In this document: positions 2,022 to 9,984 of the stretch, one piece after another | Numbering within the stretch: position 1 is the stretch's first letter | Layout of the letters: every line of letters begins with the position of its first letter | Assembly: GCA_947177715.1 (NCBI GenBank) | Contig: CAMWVM010000018.1 | Span: forward strand, 1 to 13,207 | Length of the DNA stretch: 13,207 bases | Source: an uncultured Ruminococcus sp. | Lineage (GTDB): Bacteria > Bacillota > Clostridia > Oscillospirales > Ruminococcaceae | Direction of reading: 5' to 3' | Program-made: the position numbers and the translations under genes | Notes under the pieces: model-generated | Databases searched by the model: none | Seen by the model: the letters and a program-made list of their open reading frames with translations, nothing else | Told to the model about the DNA's origin: nothing

Positions 2022-2119
2022 TTAGTAAATATATATAGCTTGTTGACGAAAAATGTAATCTCAGTATTGTATTTGAAATTGCATTATTTGATTATGCATA
2101 AAAAGTGGAGGCATATATC

Positions 2120-4870
2120 ATGATAGAAAAACTTTGTGGTATAACTATTCAAGGTAGATGTTTTTCTAATTTAACCTTATTAAAGCTTTTTCCTAACCCG
2201 AAAAACAGAATTACAATTGTTTATGGTAGAAATGGTAGTGGCAAAAGTACGATATCAGATGGAGTAAATTATTTAACTCAATCGGATGTTAACTCTGACA
2301 TCAATGTTAAATTAATAGATAACAATGATTCCTACATCAATTATGTTCCAAGTGATAATAAAATCTTTGTTTTTAATGAAAACTACATCAATAAAAAAGT
2401 AAAAATACATAGTGATGGATTAGATACAATTCTTTTATTTGGAGAAGCAGGAGAATACCAATCCGAAATAAACCATTATGAATTATTAAAATCTAACAAT
2501 GAAAAACAAAAGAATGACAAACAAAAAGAATTTGAAAAATACCAAAAAAATAATGAACCATTGAATCCTGAATATCATTTTAATCAAATCAAAAAAATTT
2601 TAAAACAAGATGATGGATGGGCAGATATAGATTCAAAACTTAAAGGTAATAAAACTAAAACGCCTATAAATGCAAATGTAATAAAAGAAATTGGTAAGTT
2701 AACTCCTCAATCAACTTTAAATGAAATTAAACAAAAGTTTAAAAAAACCAAATTAATATTTGACAAGATTTCAACAACTAATACAAGGTACTTAAATCCA
2801 ATAGTTCAAATCACATTAAAAAAAGATTTAGAAACATTAATTTGTGACCTTTTATCTAAACAAATAAAACAATCAGAACTAACCGATAGAGAAAAAGAGA
2901 TTCTTAAAGCAGTTCAAAATGGTCAACAAGAATTTATAGAAAAAGCATATTTAAATTTTAACAACTCTAATATTTCAACTTGTCCTTTTTGTTATCAAAA
3001 AATCAGTGATGAATATAAACAAAAACTAATTGAAAATATAAGACACGTTCTAAATAAAGATGTTAAAGAACATAAACAACAACTAAACAACATTGTCTTT
3101 CCTAATTTGAGTTTTAACTATGATAATTATTCTGTCATTGATGAGGAATTGGTTGATAAAATAAATACACAAAAAAATATTTGTCAGGATTTAATTAATC
3201 AATATCAAGAGCTTATCAACCGAAAGTTAGGGAATATTTATACTCCAATAAATATTGATAAAAACGGTCTTGTAGATAAAATTATAGACTTTAATATCTT
3301 ATTGCAGCAGTTAGAAAACAAGCGTTTAGACTTTAATGAATCTATAAGAAAAATAGATCGTTTAAAAAAAGAACTTATCAACTTAAATAAAGAAATTGCA
3401 TATTATCAAATTTTAGATCATTATGAATCTTATAAAAAACAAGAGAAAGAAAAAGATGATTTAGTTGCTGATATAGAACAAATAGACTCAGATTTAAATA
3501 TAATAGAAAGTCATTTAAAAGAACTAAAAGGAAAAATGTCTAAATTAGGATTAGCAGTAAATTATATAAATAAATCTTTGAATTATATATTTATGGATTC
3601 TAAAAGAATTTCTATTGAACTGAAAAATCAAAAATATTATTTAAAAGTTAATGGAGAAAACGTCACCCCAAATAATGTTTCTTTAGGCGAAAGAAACATT
3701 ATTGCTCTTTGTTATTTTTTCACTCAAATTATGGATCAAAAGGATATGTCAAAACCCTATAATGATGAGTCTCTAATTATTATTGATGACCCAATCTCTA
3801 GTTTTGATTTTGAAAACAGAATTGGAATCACTTCATATTTAAAATCTGAAATTGATAAAATAATTCGAGGAAATAAAAATAGCAAAATATTAATTTTATC
3901 GCATGACCTTTCTACTATCTTTGATCTTCAAAAAATTATGGAAGAAATTAATAAAGTTTCTATAGAAAAATCAATTTTTTTAAAATTTGAACTTATTAAT
4001 AGTAAACTTTGTGACTTTAAACGAAAACGAAATGAATATCAAGTGCTATTACAAAAAATATATCATTACGCCAGTGACGTAAATCAAAATGATGATAATA
4101 ATATTATTATAGGCAATATTATGCGTCGTGTTTTAGAAGCTTTCTCCACTTTTTCTTATCAAAACAGTATAGAAGAAGTCTCTTACAACAAACTTATACT
4201 TAAAAAACTTGGAAAATATTCGTTTTATTTTGAACATCTTATGTATCGTTTGGTTTTACATGGCGAAAGTCATTATGAGGAACAAGTTTATACGATGCAC
4301 GACGGACTAGAATTTCATGAGTTAATTTCAGATGATTCAAAAAAGAAAACCGCCAAAGATATTTTATGCTTTATTTATCTATTAAACGAAGTCCATATAC
4401 AATCATATCTTGGTGATAAAGCTGTAAATAATATAAAAAGATGGTTGTCTAATATAGAAAAAATCCTTTTCACTGAATCAACCATTGAACAAACTCAAAA
4501 TAAAAGGTCTATTGATTTATATGAACTTCCTTCGTCTGCTGGAGTAGGACTCCACCTTGATAACAATGTTCCTAAAAAAGAATATCAAACAGACAATAAA
4601 GAATGTGATTTTGCTTTAAAAATATCTGGCAATAGCATGGAACCAGATATACCTGATAATAGCATTGTATTAGTAAAGCAATGCAAAAATCTTGAAGACG
4701 GAAAAATTGGTGTATTTGTTCTTAACGGAAGTGCTTTTTGTAAAAAAATAACTCATAAAAATAATAATGCCTATTTAGAATCAATAAATCCCCAATATAA
4801 ACCAATAAAAATTATAGAATATGACTTACTTGAAACTTTTGGAGAAGTAATTGAAGTTTGCGAAAATTAA
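2120..4870 (+). CDS. SMC/AAA_13-like ATPase fused to a LexA/UmuD-type S24 self-cleaving peptidase domain
   Basis: The protein has 916 residues. The ATG at 2120 follows GTGGAGG (2105-2111) at eight bases. The ABC/SMC ATPase parts are Walker A GRNGSGKST (36-44), a long coiled-coil middle with a zinc-hook-like CPFC (288-291), signature SLGE (521-524), Walker B LIIIDDP (552-558) and H-loop SHD (594-596). This order fits the AAA_13 group that includes PrrC and RloC, which couple DNA or restriction sensing to RNA cleavage. A helical region follows (about 600-790). Residues from about 800 to 916 form a complete S24 domain: cleavage-type Ala807-Gly808, serine motif GNSMEP (Ser839) and the lysine at Lys875/Lys876. 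The Ala-Gly to Ser and Ser to Lys distances (32 and about 36) are close to those of LexA and UmuD. No helix-turn-helix is present. Self-cleavage after DNA damage, releasing or inactivating the ATPase, is my inference. Confidence 0.85.
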   Translation: MIEKLCGITIQGRCFSNLTLLKLFPNPKNRITIVYGRNGSGKSTISDGVNYLTQSDVNSDINVKLIDNNDSYINYVPSDNKIFVFNENYINKKVKIHSDGLDTILLFGEAGEYQSEINHYELLKSNNEKQKNDKQKEFEKYQKNNEPLNPEYHFNQIKKILKQDDGWADIDSKLKGNKTKTPINANVIKEIGKLTPQSTLNEIKQKFKKTKLIFDKISTTNTRYLNPIVQITLKKDLETLICDLLSKQIKQSELTDREKEILKAVQNGQQEFIEKAYLNFNNSNISTCPFCYQKISDEYKQKLIENIRHVLNKDVKEHKQQLNNIVFPNLSFNYDNYSVIDEELVDKINTQKNICQDLINQYQELINRKLGNIYTPINIDKNGLVDKIIDFNILLQQLENKRLDFNESIRKIDRLKKELINLNKEIAYYQILDHYESYKKQEKEKDDLVADIEQIDSDLNIIESHLKELKGKMSKLGLAVNYINKSLNYIFMDSKRISIELKNQKYYLKVNGENVTPNNVSLGERNIIALCYFFTQIMDQKDMSKPYNDESLIIIDDPISSFDFENRIGITSYLKSEIDKIIRGNKNSKILILSHDLSTIFDLQKIMEEINKVSIEKSIFLKFELINSKLCDFKRKRNEYQVLLQKIYHYASDVNQNDDNNIIIGNIMRRVLEAFSTFSYQNSIEEVSYNKLILKKLGKYSFYFEHLMYRLVLHGESHYEEQVYTMHDGLEFHELISDDSKKKTAKDILCFIYLLNEVHIQSYLGDKAVNNIKRWLSNIEKILFTESTIEQTQNKRSIDLYELPSSAGVGLHLDNNVPKKEYQTDNKECDFALKISGNSMEPDIPDNSIVLVKQCKNLEDGKIGVFVLNGSAFCKKITHKNNNAYLESINPQYKPIKIIEYDLLETFGEVIEVCEN

Positions 4871-5499: not shown

Positions 5500-6348
5500 T
5501 TAACTAGCGATATAGGCAAATAACTTGTCCTTCACATAGTTTAATTGAGAAATATCAAAACTACTAATTAACGCAGCTTTTAAATCATTATAACTAATTT
5601 TCTTTGTTAATTTTGAATTCAAGAACATTTTTAAACTGCTTATATAACATTTACCACATACAAAGCTACTTAATTCTGAACCGTATACCTCTTTAAGCCT
5701 TAATAACATTTGTTCAATTTTAGTATCAAGATCAGGTATAAACTCTATTATTTCTTTTTTATATGCTTCAAACATACTTACGTTAGGATAACCTCTTTTA
5801 TCTAAAAAACGCTCTACGCCTCGTGCAACATTTTTGATTTCTGGACAATACATTTGAACAAGACAATGTAAAGCAAATAATCTTTCTAAAAAAGGTGTGA
5901 TTGTATTTATCCAATTATCATAATCAACTATTTCTTTTGTTTCTGCGTAAGTTTTTCTTAGTTTAGGTCTCATAAATTGCAAGGTTGTTTCTTTATGTAG
6001 CAAATAACTCTCAATATTATATCTTCTTAAGTATAAAAAGTTATCCCCTACAATCACATTTTTACCCAATATTAAATCGAAATCTCCATCTGCAATAAAA
6101 AAGCAATTCCCATATTCGTCTGAATTTCCAAACAAATTATATGATTCTTCTAAAAAAGTTTTTCCACCTGTCGGAAATATACAGCTAATTTTTATTTCCT
6201 CAGGAAGTAACCGTTCAAATATTTCTTCATATTCATATTCTTTATGGGTATCTTCTACAAAAATATTGAGCTTATTTTTAGAAATTAATAATAATGCTCT
6301 TGATAATAAAGCTTCATCTGAATATTTCAAATCAAATTCAATTTCCAT
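5500..6348 (-). CDS. ariB: DUF4435/TOPRIM nuclease, AriB-like subunit of a PARIS system
   Basis: The protein has 282 residues. The start at ATG 6348 lies 15 bp after the ATPase stop, and TAAGGA at that stop is the likely, rather distant, ribosome binding site, so translation is probably coupled. DUF4435/TOPRIM-like features are IFVED with Glu32 (29-33), GGKTF (61-65), FIADGDFD with Asp87 and Asp89 (84-91) and FLYLRRYNIESYL (104-116), which matches the family's 'Y.IEnYL' motif. A helical C-terminal half follows. In E. coli PARIS, AriA holds AriB until a phage anti-restriction protein such as Ocr releases it; AriB then cleaves host tRNA-Lys and aborts infection. Size, order and motifs fit. The trigger and the tRNA target in this host are unknown. 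A relative outside PARIS, such as another OLD-like nuclease pair, remains possible. Confidence 0.75.
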   Translation of the reverse strand: MEIEFDLKYSDEALLSRALLLISKNKLNIFVEDTHKEYEYEEIFERLLPEEIKISCIFPTGGKTFLEESYNLFGNSDEYGNCFFIADGDFDLILGKNVIVGDNFLYLRRYNIESYLLHKETTLQFMRPKLRKTYAETKEIVDYDNWINTITPFLERLFALHCLVQMYCPEIKNVARGVERFLDKRGYPNVSMFEAYKKEIIEFIPDLDTKIEQMLLRLKEVYGSELSSFVCGKCYISSLKMFLNSKLTKKISYNDLKAALISSFDISQLNYVKDKLFAYIAS

Positions 6349-6363
6349 TATTCAATCAAATCC

Positions 6364-7650
6364 TTACATGTTTGGAATTAATTTAACGCACTTATCTAAA
6401 TGTTTTCCTATTATCTCAGGTGCATGCGTAGCAAATATTAACTGAACATTTTTATTAACAGACATTATTGAATCCACAAATTGCCTTTGCCAATTTAAAT
6501 GTAGAGATAGTTCAGGTTCATCAACAATAAATATACTTTGATTAGTATTTTCTAATCCAAAAATTAGATATGCAAAAAAAGTAACTATTTGCTTTTCTCC
6601 TGATGATAAATGCTGAATATCAACCTTATTACCATGTGTTTTTAAATTAATTGTACCATCAGTATCAATAATAATTTCTTTTTTAACACTATTATTTCCA
6701 ATAAATTTATTAACTGTCTTAACAAAATCATTTACTGGTTGTTTATGTTTTTTCTTACTTTGTTCAGATTCTTCAGCTTTTGAAATAATACTATTTATCT
6801 TTACCAATTCAGATAATTTAAATAAAACTTCTATTGAAAACCCTACATTTGTTTTTTCGGCTTCTTTTATATCTTTTTCTAATGATTCAAAAAAGTAGTT
6901 TATCCTTGTTTCAGTTTTATTATCCCATTTATTAATAGTTTTTAAAACATTAGCATAATCTTCTTGAATCTTTTTTACTTGATCTGAATCTAATTTATTT
7001 ATATATTTTATTAATTGTTCAACATTTGAACTATTTTCAACATCTAAAAATGATTTTAAAATATCATTACTGAATTTCTCATTAATTTTGTTCAATATGA
7101 AATTAACTCTATTATACGATCTTCTTACAAGACTTTCCACATCATGTAATGTAACATCTATATTACTAATATAACGTCTTCTATAGCTTGCCGATTTTTC
7201 AATAGTTAAAAAATCATTAGCAATATTCCCATCTCTGTTTAATGGCAGATACACATAATTAAAAGTATCTTTAATTTCATTCAATATAGGATATTGAGAA
7301 AGATAATATCTTTCAATTTCAAGTTTTCTTTCAGAATTTTCATAACGTTGTGACTCTATTAAATCTATTTGATTTAAAAAAATAACTTTAATATCGTTTC
7401 CCTCATGAGAAATGATTATGTTATCCACACTATCAGTTTTATCTGATGAATATTTTAAAATTATTTCCTTAAAATCATATTGAAACAATTCATAAATCTT
7501 GCCTGTAATTATATAAGTAATAATATTAAGAATAGTTGTTTTCCCACAACCGTTATCTCCATAAAGAAAAGTAATATCAGAATTAAAGGATACATCATAA
7601 TTAAAATATCCATGCATCTTGTCAATTTTTAAACCAACCAATTTCACCAT
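6364..7650 (-). CDS. ariA: AAA ATPase, AriA-like subunit of a PARIS system
   Basis: The protein has 428 residues from ATG 7650, with AAGGGTGA directly upstream (7653-7660); an upstream TTG at 7668 would overrun this site. It is an ABC-type ATPase with Walker A GDNGCGKTT (31-39), a helical insert, signature LSSGEK (348-353), Walker B IFIVDEPE (373-380) and H-loop THAP (408-411). That is the AAA_15/AAA_21 arrangement of OLD-like and AriA proteins at typical AriA length. In PARIS, AriA assembles into a multimer that senses the anti-restriction trigger and holds the toxic AriB. The partner directly downstream encodes a DUF4435 protein, which is the defining PARIS pairing. The family is secure; the PARIS label rests on the pair. 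Confidence 0.78.
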   Translation of the reverse strand: MVKLVGLKIDKMHGYFNYDVSFNSDITFLYGDNGCGKTTILNIITYIITGKIYELFQYDFKEIILKYSSDKTDSVDNIIISHEGNDIKVIFLNQIDLIESQRYENSERKLEIERYYLSQYPILNEIKDTFNYVYLPLNRDGNIANDFLTIEKSASYRRRYISNIDVTLHDVESLVRRSYNRVNFILNKINEKFSNDILKSFLDVENSSNVEQLIKYINKLDSDQVKKIQEDYANVLKTINKWDNKTETRINYFFESLEKDIKEAEKTNVGFSIEVLFKLSELVKINSIISKAEESEQSKKKHKQPVNDFVKTVNKFIGNNSVKKEIIIDTDGTINLKTHGNKVDIQHLSSGEKQIVTFFAYLIFGLENTNQSIFIVDEPELSLHLNWQRQFVDSIMSVNKNVQLIFATHAPEIIGKHLDKCVKLIPNM

Positions 7651-7688
7651 TATCACCCTTTGTTGCAATTTAGCACTTTATCATACAT

Positions 7689-8074: not shown

Positions 8075-8539
8075 ATGTCACAGTTCAGCAAAAACGAGCA
8101 AATCAATGTCCCATCAATACAAATTGACAAAAATGTTATTACATATGCAAATTCATTTATTTGTACTGATAACATATCACTTATTACTATTTCTCCAATA
8201 CCACCTAATAATACTTGGGTTGGCGCTATCATTTTAGGTATATTAGGAATATGTACAGTTTCTATGGATGGAATAGGAATTATCCCACTAATCATAGCAA
8301 TAATCTGGTTTGGACTTGTTATGAAGTACAATAATGAACGTGGAAAAAATTTAGCTATTAGTTTGAATTCAGGTGCAACACTATATTTTAATTGTAAAGA
8401 TGTAGAATTCCTTAATACAGTTGTTAATACAATGCTGAATAGTATCAAAGATAAAAACAAATCAACATATTCTATTAGTTTTGATAAATGTACAATTAAC
8501 GATGGTGTTTTAAAAGAAAGCACTCTTATTAATAGTTAA
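8075..8539 (+). CDS. two-helix membrane protein, DUF6232-like
   Basis: The protein has 154 residues and starts at ATG 8075 with AGGAGAG at 8061-8067. The N-terminal region (1-45) is a beta-rich, PH-like stretch (IQIDKNVITYANSFICTDN, then ISLITISPI). Two adjacent membrane segments lie at about 47-63 and 66-83, separated by a tight turn. A second soluble part follows (LAISLNSGATLYFNC, VEFLNTVVNTMLNSI). This layout resembles DUF6232 proteins, whose function is unknown; I make that match from memory at moderate confidence. The C-terminus reads FDKCTINDGVLKEST, strikingly like the N-terminus of the next protein (FENCTINGGILDGA). The two genes are 15 bp apart and share the promoter at 7994-8022 and the terminator at 8877-8921, so they probably work together, perhaps as a membrane-bound effector. 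Confidence 0.75.
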   Translation: MSQFSKNEQINVPSIQIDKNVITYANSFICTDNISLITISPIPPNNTWVGAIILGILGICTVSMDGIGIIPLIIAIIWFGLVMKYNNERGKNLAISLNSGATLYFNCKDVEFLNTVVNTMLNSIKDKNKSTYSISFDKCTINDGVLKESTLINS

Positions 8540-8554
8540 ATGAAGGAGGCAAAA

Positions 8555-8878
8555 ATGGATACAAAATTTGAAAATTGCACTATTAATGGCGGCATATTGG
8601 ATGGTGCTATCTTTGGAGATAATAACAATATTATACACGGCAATCAGATTAATAAAGAATCTGATAATTTTGTCAATTATCTTGATGAACTACTAAAAAT
8701 TTCAGATAGCTCAGTAGAAAAAGAATGTGCAAAGCAAGCTAAAATACTCTACTTAAATAACGATAAAAAAACATTGAAAGATTTCATTATAGAAAACATA
8801 GCTACTTTTACAACCGGCACTTTTGCGACTGTTGCAGGTGGATTGCTTTTAAATGCAATTCAAAACATTTTAAAATAA
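8555..8878 (+). CDS. small protein with CTINxG beta-motif and C-terminal hydrophobic helix
   Basis: The protein has 107 residues. The ATG at 8555 is chosen because GAAGGAGG lies just upstream; the ATG at 8540 would include that site. Residues 1-34 look like one or two turns of a beta-solenoid (FENCTINGGILDGA, FGDNNNIIHGNQ). Residues 42-88 are charged helices (LDELLKISDSSVEKECAKQAKILY). Residues 88-107 form a hydrophobic, glycine-rich helix (TGTFATVAGGLLLNAIQNIL) that may enter a membrane. I do not recognise a named family. The shared CTINxGxL motif with the membrane protein just upstream suggests that the two pair through matching beta strands. A toxin-like or pore role is conceivable, but nothing catalytic is visible. 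The gene is followed within a few bases by a strong terminator. Confidence 0.7.
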   Translation: MDTKFENCTINGGILDGAIFGDNNNIIHGNQINKESDNFVNYLDELLKISDSSVEKECAKQAKILYLNNDKKTLKDFIIENIATFTTGTFATVAGGLLLNAIQNILK

Positions 8879-9007: not shown

Positions 9008-9673
9008 TTATTTTATTTTGTTATTTCCGATTAAACATTTATCATATATAAATTTAATAATCTTTTCATTGTTATTGGTTTCATAAAACTCTACCAATAA
9101 CGTTAAAAAATTCAATCTTTCTTTGACAGGAATAGATATTAACCCACATCCATTTTCAATTAAGATTTTATTGGCTAATAACATACTAATTCTCTTATTA
9201 CCATCAATAAAAAATTGACCTCTCATGCAATAAAGCATAAGTAATATTGCCCTGTCTGTATCATCTTTTGTTTCAAGAATATCTATTAGATCTCTTTTAA
9301 TTTTTTCTTCATCAGGAAATTCAGGTTTCCAATCAGTACCGCCAATACCTGCATAATCATAAATGGTTCTAAACGATCCTGCATTAGCGACAGTAAATTT
9401 ACCTATAATTCTATGCAAATTTTTAATGTATTCAATGTCTATGATACCGTTTATATTTTCAAGAACAAATTGCCAGCCATATTTTAAATCATTAACTAAA
9501 TTTATTTCATCAATACTATAGCCACTTACAGACATACCATCTACAATTATTTGTATTTCTGGATATGTCATACCAATACCCTCAAGCTGAACACTTTTCC
9601 ATATGGAATCTACAATATTACGTTTAGCAAAAAAGATATTTTCTTCTTGGGTCATATCATATATACGGCTCAT
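9008..9673 (-). CDS. Fic-fold protein with Gln in place of the catalytic His
   Basis: The protein has 221 residues from ATG 9673, chosen because AGAGGTGA (9682-9689) lies eight bases upstream; in-frame codons further upstream have no such site. The Fic core is clear: AGSFRTI (98-104), then GQFFIDGNKR (152-161) where HPFxxGNxR is expected, then AN.ILIENG (167-175). The catalytic His is replaced by Gln153; the rest of the loop is kept. Near the N-terminus SVQLEG (27-32) fits the (S/T)xxxE(G/N) inhibitory helix of class II Fic proteins. Without the His, ordinary AMP transfer is unlikely. I recall other Fic-like proteins with a Gln here, so this may be a distinct subfamily, not decay. It has its own promoter and terminator, so it reads as a cargo gene. 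Confidence 0.8.
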   Translation of the reverse strand: MSRIYDMTQEENIFFAKRNIVDSIWKSVQLEGIGMTYPEIQIIVDGMSVSGYSIDEINLVNDLKYGWQFVLENINGIIDIEYIKNLHRIIGKFTVANAGSFRTIYDYAGIGGTDWKPEFPDEEKIKRDLIDILETKDDTDRAILLMLYCMRGQFFIDGNKRISMLLANKILIENGCGLISIPVKERLNFLTLLVEFYETNNNEKIIKFIYDKCLIGNNKIK

Positions 9674-9697
9674 AAAACACATCACCTCTACGCAAAA

Positions 9698-9726
9698 ATT
9701 ATAACATATGTACACGAAAAAATCAA
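9698..9726 (-). promoter_or_regulatory. promoter of the Fic gene
   Basis: On the minus strand TTGATT (9726-9721), a 17-nt spacer and TATAAT (9703-9698) with an extended TGT. It lies between the end of the Lar-like gene and the Fic start, so the Fic gene can be expressed from the prophage independently of the early operon. Confidence 0.7.
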
Positions 9727-9744
9727 GAATTATACCTTAACTAT

Positions 9745-9951
9745 CTAATGTACCTCATGTTCTTTATAATAAAAGCGTTTACCTTTATTCCAATTATTCA
9801 CCGCTTTATCTCTAATATCATGGCTTTTACTTCGCACACCACAATTGCGGCAAACTAATGTAAATTTATCTTTTGTATCATACATAATTTTAGGTTTTAA
9901 TCCACAGTGGCATGATAAAATTTTACGATGTTTACTTTCTCTACTAGCCAT
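9745..9951 (-). CDS. Lar-like zinc-ribbon phage protein
   Basis: The protein has 68 residues from ATG 9951, with AGGAAG eight bases upstream. A CHCG knuckle (Cys14, Cys16) and CRNCG (Cys34, Cys37) form a likely zinc ribbon, followed by DKAVNNWNKG (48-57), the 'eA...WN' tail typical of the Lar_restr_allev family. Many phages encode this fold. Rac-prophage Lar eases type I restriction by the host, but most homologs are uncharacterised, so an anti-restriction role is only suggested. The first knuckle is CxC where the classical form has CxxC. It is the last gene of the leftward early cluster, next to the Fic gene. Confidence 0.7.
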   Translation of the reverse strand: MASRESKHRKILSCHCGLKPKIMYDTKDKFTLVCRNCGVRSKSHDIRDKAVNNWNKGKRFYYKEHEVH

Positions 9952-9984
9952 TTTAAACACTTCCTTTTTTATATTTCAATTTAA

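Follow-up and report, generated by a model that had tools for sequence, protein, structure and literature searches.

The stretch analysed here, called the window, is 13,207 nucleotides long and carries an intact, single gene, rloC-S24, in which an ATPase of the Pfam AAA_13 type is joined to a C-terminal Peptidase_S24 domain in one protein. This gene, its motifs and the two genes upstream of it were placed as follows:

501–971: XRE repressor, upstream of rloC-S24
1023–1550: ImmA-type metallopeptidase, upstream of rloC-S24 and followed by a 550-base gap
2107–2111, plus strand: ribosome-binding site GGAGG, 8 bases 5' of the ATG at 2120, read from the sequence
2120–4870, plus strand: rloC-S24 gene, 916 residues, Rad50-like ABC ATPase with coiled coil, RloC-type nuclease region and S24 self-cleaving domain
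2225–2251, plus strand: Walker A motif GRNGSGKST, residues 36–44
2981–2992, plus strand: zinc-hook motif CPFC, residues 288–291, both cysteines present in 120/120 listed proteins
3680–3691, plus strand: ABC signature SLGE, residues 521–524
3773–3790, plus strand: Walker B motif LIIIDD, residues 552–557; D557 and P558 invariant
3896–3907, plus strand: H-loop LSHD, residues 593–596; H595 and D596 invariant
4124–4138, plus strand: first part of the nuclease triad, R669-X3-E673, a motif as published for RloC
4268–4273, plus strand: end of the nuclease triad, S717-H718, 44 residues past E673
4508–4867, plus strand: S24 (LexA/UmuD-type) domain, residues 797–916, matched by both profile and fold
4538–4543, plus strand: predicted self-cleavage site, Ala807-Gly808
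4634–4636, plus strand: predicted catalytic Ser839
4742–4744, plus strand: predicted catalytic Lys875

The first-pass annotation, made from the sequence alone, had described the product as an AAA_13/SMC-type ATPase fused to an S24 domain in one gene, and had proposed profile searches, a structure model and a survey of other genomes for the same two-domain order. Profile and fold matches bore the description out. PF00717 was found at the C-terminus in a profile search of the full protein, the structure model gave matches to the Rad50 fold and, for the S24 part, to LexA and CI, and the same domain order was found in two protein families, described below. When a HEPN fold was sought by structure, the lists of PDB matches to the model were taken up by the ATPase and S24 parts. 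The CPFC hook is predicted to have long helices on both sides, as in a coiled-coil insert. The Walker A, CPFC, SLGE, Walker B and H-loop motifs read in that annotation are all present in the alignment columns, and the alignment likewise confirmed that Ala807-Gly808, Ser839 and Lys875 make up a complete S24 catalytic set. The protein had been described as having no helix-turn-helix, and a Pfam scan of it gave no such family, nor any other DNA-binding family. LexA and UmuD have spacings of about 34–35 (Gly to Ser) and 37 (Ser to Lys); with 31 residues from Gly808 to Ser839 and 36 from Ser839 to Lys875 in the window protein, the remark that its spacing is close to theirs stands. The window protein thus shares with LexA, UmuD and phage CI the S24 profile and fold, the Ala-Gly site and the Ser-Lys dyad, but it lacks a DNA-binding domain, and its effector is an ATPase-nuclease rather than a repressor.

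Three features have been used to define RloC (PMC2610378): ABC motifs like those of PrrC, a zinc hook, and a triad R-X3-E-X36–52-H in which Ser often precedes the His. The triad of the window protein, R669-X3-E673-X44-S717-H718, fits this published pattern. The lead to PrrC/RloC given in the first-pass annotation was therefore right, and the CPFC hook and the tRNase triad allow what had been called a defence-type ATPase to be named more exactly as RloC-type. The pattern MR..LE-X36–52-SH was present in 119 of 120 listed proteins of the window's own family (family 1), the exception being P0116, a chimeric-looking protein from which the triad is absent; a looser R...E-X36–52-SH appeared within residues 600–780 in 8 of 2000 shuffles of the window protein. 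The JGI name "wobble nucleotide-excising tRNase" is carried by P0123 and P0181, both fused and both from the second family, and by P0232, an S24-less relative. Of the listed family-1 proteins, P0067 alone has a source name, "AAA15 family ATPase/GTPase". On its motifs, fold and the JGI name, the window protein is very probably an RloC-type anticodon nuclease, and we expect the predicted nuclease to cut tRNA.

Like the RloC proteins of Geobacillus kaustophilus and Acinetobacter baylyi, the window protein has a Rad50-like ABC ATPase, a CXXC hook in a coiled coil and the triad R-X3-E-X36–52-(S)H; the nuclease region of RloC, described as HEPN-type, follows the ATPase (PMC3710099), as it does here. 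The window protein differs in adding a complete S24 domain past the nuclease region, and excerpts of the RloC descriptions mention no such domain. Among other known systems, the models of the PADLOC candidate PDC-S06 matched the AAA_13 part (best E 8.2e-43 for the window protein and 2.7e-154 for P0129 of family 2), but these matches end ahead of S24, with end points at residues 612–734 in the window protein and 463–739 in P0129. When the whole model was submitted to Foldseek, a chain of Lamassu (LmuACB) ranked first, with a TM of 0.21–0.29, and PADLOC gave LmuB at E 7.3e-9; given that TM, the likeness is a shared SMC-like build only. The window's system, moreover, consists of one protein that itself contains a nuclease triad, and the Pfam and PADLOC scans gave no match to LmuA or LmuC for the window ORFs they covered (for the AriA-like protein described below, among the best 25 of 96 PADLOC rows). 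In literature searches, some of which were swamped by unrelated words, no report of an S24-bearing RloC was among the best matches. The ATPase-nuclease (RloC) and the S24 domain are both known kinds; their union appears to be unreported.

The fusion recurs. A protein search, which scored the 7994 candidates with the most words in common, gave 179 matches in family 1, and PF00717 was present in 99 of the 120 listed, counting the window protein. With the S24 part alone as query, proteins of similar size yielded 20 matches, each with AAA_13 and S24. Family 2 consists of diverged RloC proteins of about 880 residues, with S24 in 100 of 120 listed proteins and the same domain order. The profiles of the two families align across 820 columns, from the ATPase through the end of S24, with 22% identity, and a family-2 structure model again matched Rad50 and LexA, and also UmuD. 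Twelve of 79 genome loci (best 80 of 415 relatives) are fused, ten from family 1 and two (L078 and L079) from family 2. Among these are copies in the genomes of named strains, such as Robinsoniella peoriensis (L006) and Evtepia gabavorous (L003). Per genome, the fusion is rare: it occurs in 3 of 394 sampled genomes of the window's order, one of the three copies being divided into two pieces, and tblastn found no S24 with the other three matches in that sample. In a phylum sample of 398 genomes only the window's own carries it, and the four family-2 matches there all stop ahead of S24. Of 238 phage records matching the window protein, none covers 80% of the query; two scans of IMG/VR gave, respectively, no match and two weak, distant ones; and 2 of 30 plasmid records cover at least 80% of the query, but these two matches lack S24, reaching query residues 781 and 775. 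As to a common origin of the tail in the two families, a tree of 39 fused S24 tails and 10 controls was weakly supported, and a single clade of all 39 was not rejected (p-AU 0.467, compared with 0.338 for family 1 alone and 0.262 for family 2 alone).

Conservation was assessed in full-length proteins of at least 860 residues, 95 of the 120 listed in family 1 (with P0116 left out) and 90 of 104 in family 2. The Ala-Gly-Ser-Lys set is complete in 93 of the 95, the exceptions being P0008, with a Gly-Gly site, and P0085, which ends ahead of the Lys, and in 88 of the 90. The two family-2 exceptions are degenerate at the S24 catalytic positions (P0209 with S, K, S, R; P0210 with A, D, D, K) and have intact nuclease triads, making them natural cleavage-dead candidates. 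In family 1, 21 of 117 S24 columns reach 98% conservation, A807, G808, S839 and K875 among them, and mean conservation is 0.75 in both the S24 domain and the RloC part. Distances in the two parts correlate (mirror r 0.83 in family 1 and 0.60 in family 2; permutation p ≤ 0.0005). By these measures, the S24 domain looks active. After the predicted cut, the N-terminal fragment would end in LSA in 81 of 95 family-1 proteins, in ASA in 70 of 90 family-2 proteins and in SSA in the window protein; a new C-terminus of the LSA/ASA type presumably resembles the C-terminal tags read by ClpX. RecA is present in the host genome, as is LexA, which was named by eye; a third S24 match there, on contig C52, looked by eye like a signal peptidase.

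The S24 domain is missing from some close relatives. A tree of RloC parts was built from 87 chosen rows, from which broken genes in genome loci had been removed by a length filter; it came from a quick search with SH-aLRT support alone, and several long branches outside the fused clades leave the order there less sure. On this tree, S24 presence changes 11 times, 10 of these forced by starred branches, compared with 28.7 in shuffles, and R...E-X36–52-SH is kept in all 87 rows. S24-less proteins are nested inside both fused clades, and are most simply read as losses, with gains as a less likely alternative; the S24 tail seems to have been discarded repeatedly. The nested family-1 proteins without S24 end 12–24 residues past Trp775, and more distant S24-less relatives end 5–18 residues past it. 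In fused proteins the cut would fall 28–33 residues past Trp775, giving a predicted N-fragment about 4–21 residues longer than the nested relatives, so that self-cleavage would leave something near a free RloC. A separate S24 gene beside S24-less relatives was not found in loci L001–L082 (ORFs of at least 50 residues, E 1e-3; many loci have less than 10 kb on one side).

Several family-1 loci are linked to restriction genes. Four of the ten family-1 fused loci end early upstream. Of the other six, three (L003, L008 and L010) have the order hsdM-hsdS-hsdR-rloC, L020 lies behind two Eco57I-type methylases, and no relative of hsd or methylase genes was found in L004 and L006. The copy in L010 is broken into two ORFs. 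The same hsdM-hsdS-hsdR-rloC order occurs in L005, which is nested in the fused clade and in which tblastn detected no S24. L010 and L003 each have an extra ORF between hsdS and hsdR (at 6263–7021 and 6373–6972, respectively) with no Pfam match, and the two gave no mutual blastp match at 1e-6. The window itself had no hsd family in the 10 ORFs scanned with Pfam and no restriction-modification gene among the ORFs scanned. The window protein resembles PrrC-EcoprrI in its ABC ATPase and anticodon-nuclease triad, and the position of 3/10 fused family-1 loci directly behind hsdM-hsdS-hsdR recalls that of prrC in a type Ic hsd locus (PMC3710099); in contrast to PrrC, the window protein has a zinc hook and an S24 tail.

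Beyond the observed architecture, motifs, conservation, recurrence in two families and covariation, we infer a nuclease activity, self-cleavage, its dependence on RecA and its direction. The best explanation, to which we give about an even chance, is that the protein is an RloC nuclease with a detachable S24 regulator, in which self-cleavage driven by RecA filaments more likely turns the nuclease off. The Rad50-like ATPase part would sense a DNA break and drive the tRNA-cutting domain. RecA filaments forming on damaged DNA would cause S24 to cut the chain at Ala807-Gly808, releasing the tail from an otherwise RloC-sized protein. Cleavage would end nuclease activity, since S24-mediated pairing would be lost and the newly formed C-terminus, ...SSA in the window protein and ...LSA in most of its family, would be open to proteolysis. 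In this way the host could call off tRNA cutting while its own SOS repair works, a veto during repairable damage; under attack by a phage that degrades DNA or inhibits RecA, the nuclease would stay active. No experiment is known to us in which an S24-bearing protein of this kind cleaved itself or cut tRNA.

That cleavage is used as a switch we consider quite probable; given a switch, off is somewhat the likelier direction. In LexA and CI, cleavage ends the activity of the N-terminal effector part, and the domain order of effector, Ala-Gly and S24 is the same here. Off is favored also by the new LSA/ASA C-terminus and its likeness to ClpX-read tags, and by the tolerance of S24-less forms, which suggests that the tail is no indispensable brake. 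It further parallels restriction alleviation, in which type I restriction is relieved after DNA damage, either because ClpXP degrades HsdR or by a different mechanism (PMC12707154), and it would spare a prophage-borne RloC from sabotaging the induction of its own prophage; RloC has been raised as a thwarter of prophages (PMC3874168). RloC is activated by inducers of DNA breaks, and the authors of that report argue that it is inactivated with repair and active only while the break lasts (PMC3874168).

The first-pass annotation had taken the tail for a C-terminal brake whose cleavage would turn the ATPase on, or else silence it. In its serious but rather doubtful form, this is a cap restraining the nuclease, so that RecA-driven cleavage frees active RloC and the SOS response arms translation arrest. 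UmuD is activated by cleavage, and the near-free-RloC length of the N-fragment, which might amount to a fully working RloC, counts against the off direction and keeps the on direction a serious rival. Activation of RloC by break inducers fits a cap too (PMC3874168), but free RloC is described as already having an internal switch (PMC3874168). The brake picture is weakened by the nested S24-less relatives, which keep the triad and live without a cap, one of them (L005) in the hsdMSR order; an unbraked form is evidently tolerated. The same relatives count against the preferred reading of a RecA-driven off switch, since they make the role of the tail dispensable.

It is unlikely, though less so than the readings that follow, that cleavage is the switch and has a trigger other than RecA, such as phage binding, a nucleotide signal or stress. 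IrvR of Streptococcus mutans, a LexA-like protein, is a reported exception to RecA control, for which stress has been reported (PMC7101444), and that a LexA-like protein can cleave without RecA counts against the preferred reading as well; the RloC part also has a sensor of its own (PMC3874168). Against such a trigger, RecA-mediated Ala-Gly cleavage is stated as the S24 rule (PMC13148647), and the structure matches of the models include LexA, CI and UmuD solved on RecA filaments, although neither is specific proof.

S24 domains dimerize, and the tail could be a pairing or docking module, for RloC dimerization or for binding RecA, a phage repressor or an antirepressor; cleavage would then play a lesser part in the cell, or none. 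The phage-type regulator and anti-repressor genes in the window would suit this role, and P0209 and P0210, which keep the domain and the triad but have lost the cleavage residues, count for it and against the preferred reading. A pure docking role does not, however, predict the conservation of cleavage site and dyad among the most conserved columns of family 1, and we think it improbable, slightly more so than a trigger other than RecA. That the fusion is a chance joining or an assembly chimera of two genes, as the fragmented assembly of the window's genome (277 contigs) might suggest, has a negligible probability and is ruled out by the order recurring in 99/120 and 100/120 listed proteins of two families and by the copies in named-strain genomes.

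What is gained from RloC firing on DNA breaks, and how a potentially suicidal tRNA nuclease is limited in ordinary damage, were left open by its discoverers (PMC3874168); a LexA-type domain built into RloC narrows that question to one residue, Ser839. Tentatively, and at somewhat less than even chance, we see here a tRNA-cutting immune effector under direct SOS proteolytic control. In RloC variants of two lineages that diverged deeply, RecA filaments would veto translation arrest, or else license it, through a self-cut tail, and a cell would in this way tell its own repairable DNA damage from the destruction of DNA by a phage. The SOS response would thus be wired post-translationally to an immunity that arrests translation. 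Relatives that have the tail and others that lack it, some of them sharing the hsdMSR order, already occur in nature for comparison.

The remainder of the window is a prophage-like defence and regulation region, which also holds anti-repressor and phage-type regulator genes. Control of rloC-S24 by a LexA box was rejected: allowing at most 1 mismatch, GAAC-N4-GTTC occurs twice in the window, against 2.62 expected, both times away from the region upstream of the gene. A palindrome, ATCCGCATTTGCGGAT, lies at 483–498 ahead of the XRE gene, with a one-mismatch copy at 674–689 inside it (2 found against 0.15 expected, the pattern having been chosen after the first copy was seen). These are possibly an XRE operator; control of rloC-S24 by XRE was likewise rejected, as the region ahead of that gene gave no copy of the palindrome even when 3 mismatches were allowed. 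An AT-rich inverted repeat at 1986–2034, with 24-base arms that are 83% complementary and one base apart, ends about 85 bases before the start of rloC-S24; it could be an operator, or a chance product of the AT-rich sequence. Rfam gave no match in the window. Relatives of the ImmA neighbor were absent from the ORFs of loci L002–L082 (blastp, 1e-3), making it particular to the window.

Farther along, on the minus strand at 5500–7668, is a PARIS-like pair, an AriA-type ATPase of 434 residues (PADLOC AriA, E 4.4e-29) and, after it, a DUF4435/AriB-type protein of 282 residues (E 3.7e-9). In PARIS, AriB has been described as a tRNA-cutting Toprim nuclease (PMC12409363), and a second defence directed at tRNA may thus be present in the window. 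Two adjoining small proteins (154 and 112 residues; 8075–8878, plus strand), the first hydrophobic by eye, lie between the AriA and Fic genes and matched nothing in Pfam, PADLOC, NCBIfam or PHROGs. The Fic/Doc-type protein (9008–9715, minus strand) matched phrog_11900 at E 1.2e-33; RloC-like genes have been noted near Doc genes (PMC3710099). Next to it, at 9745–9960 on the minus strand, is a small Lar-like restriction-alleviation protein (phrog_6795, E 8.7e-5), which shares the window with two systems whose relatives are tied to restriction or anti-restriction.
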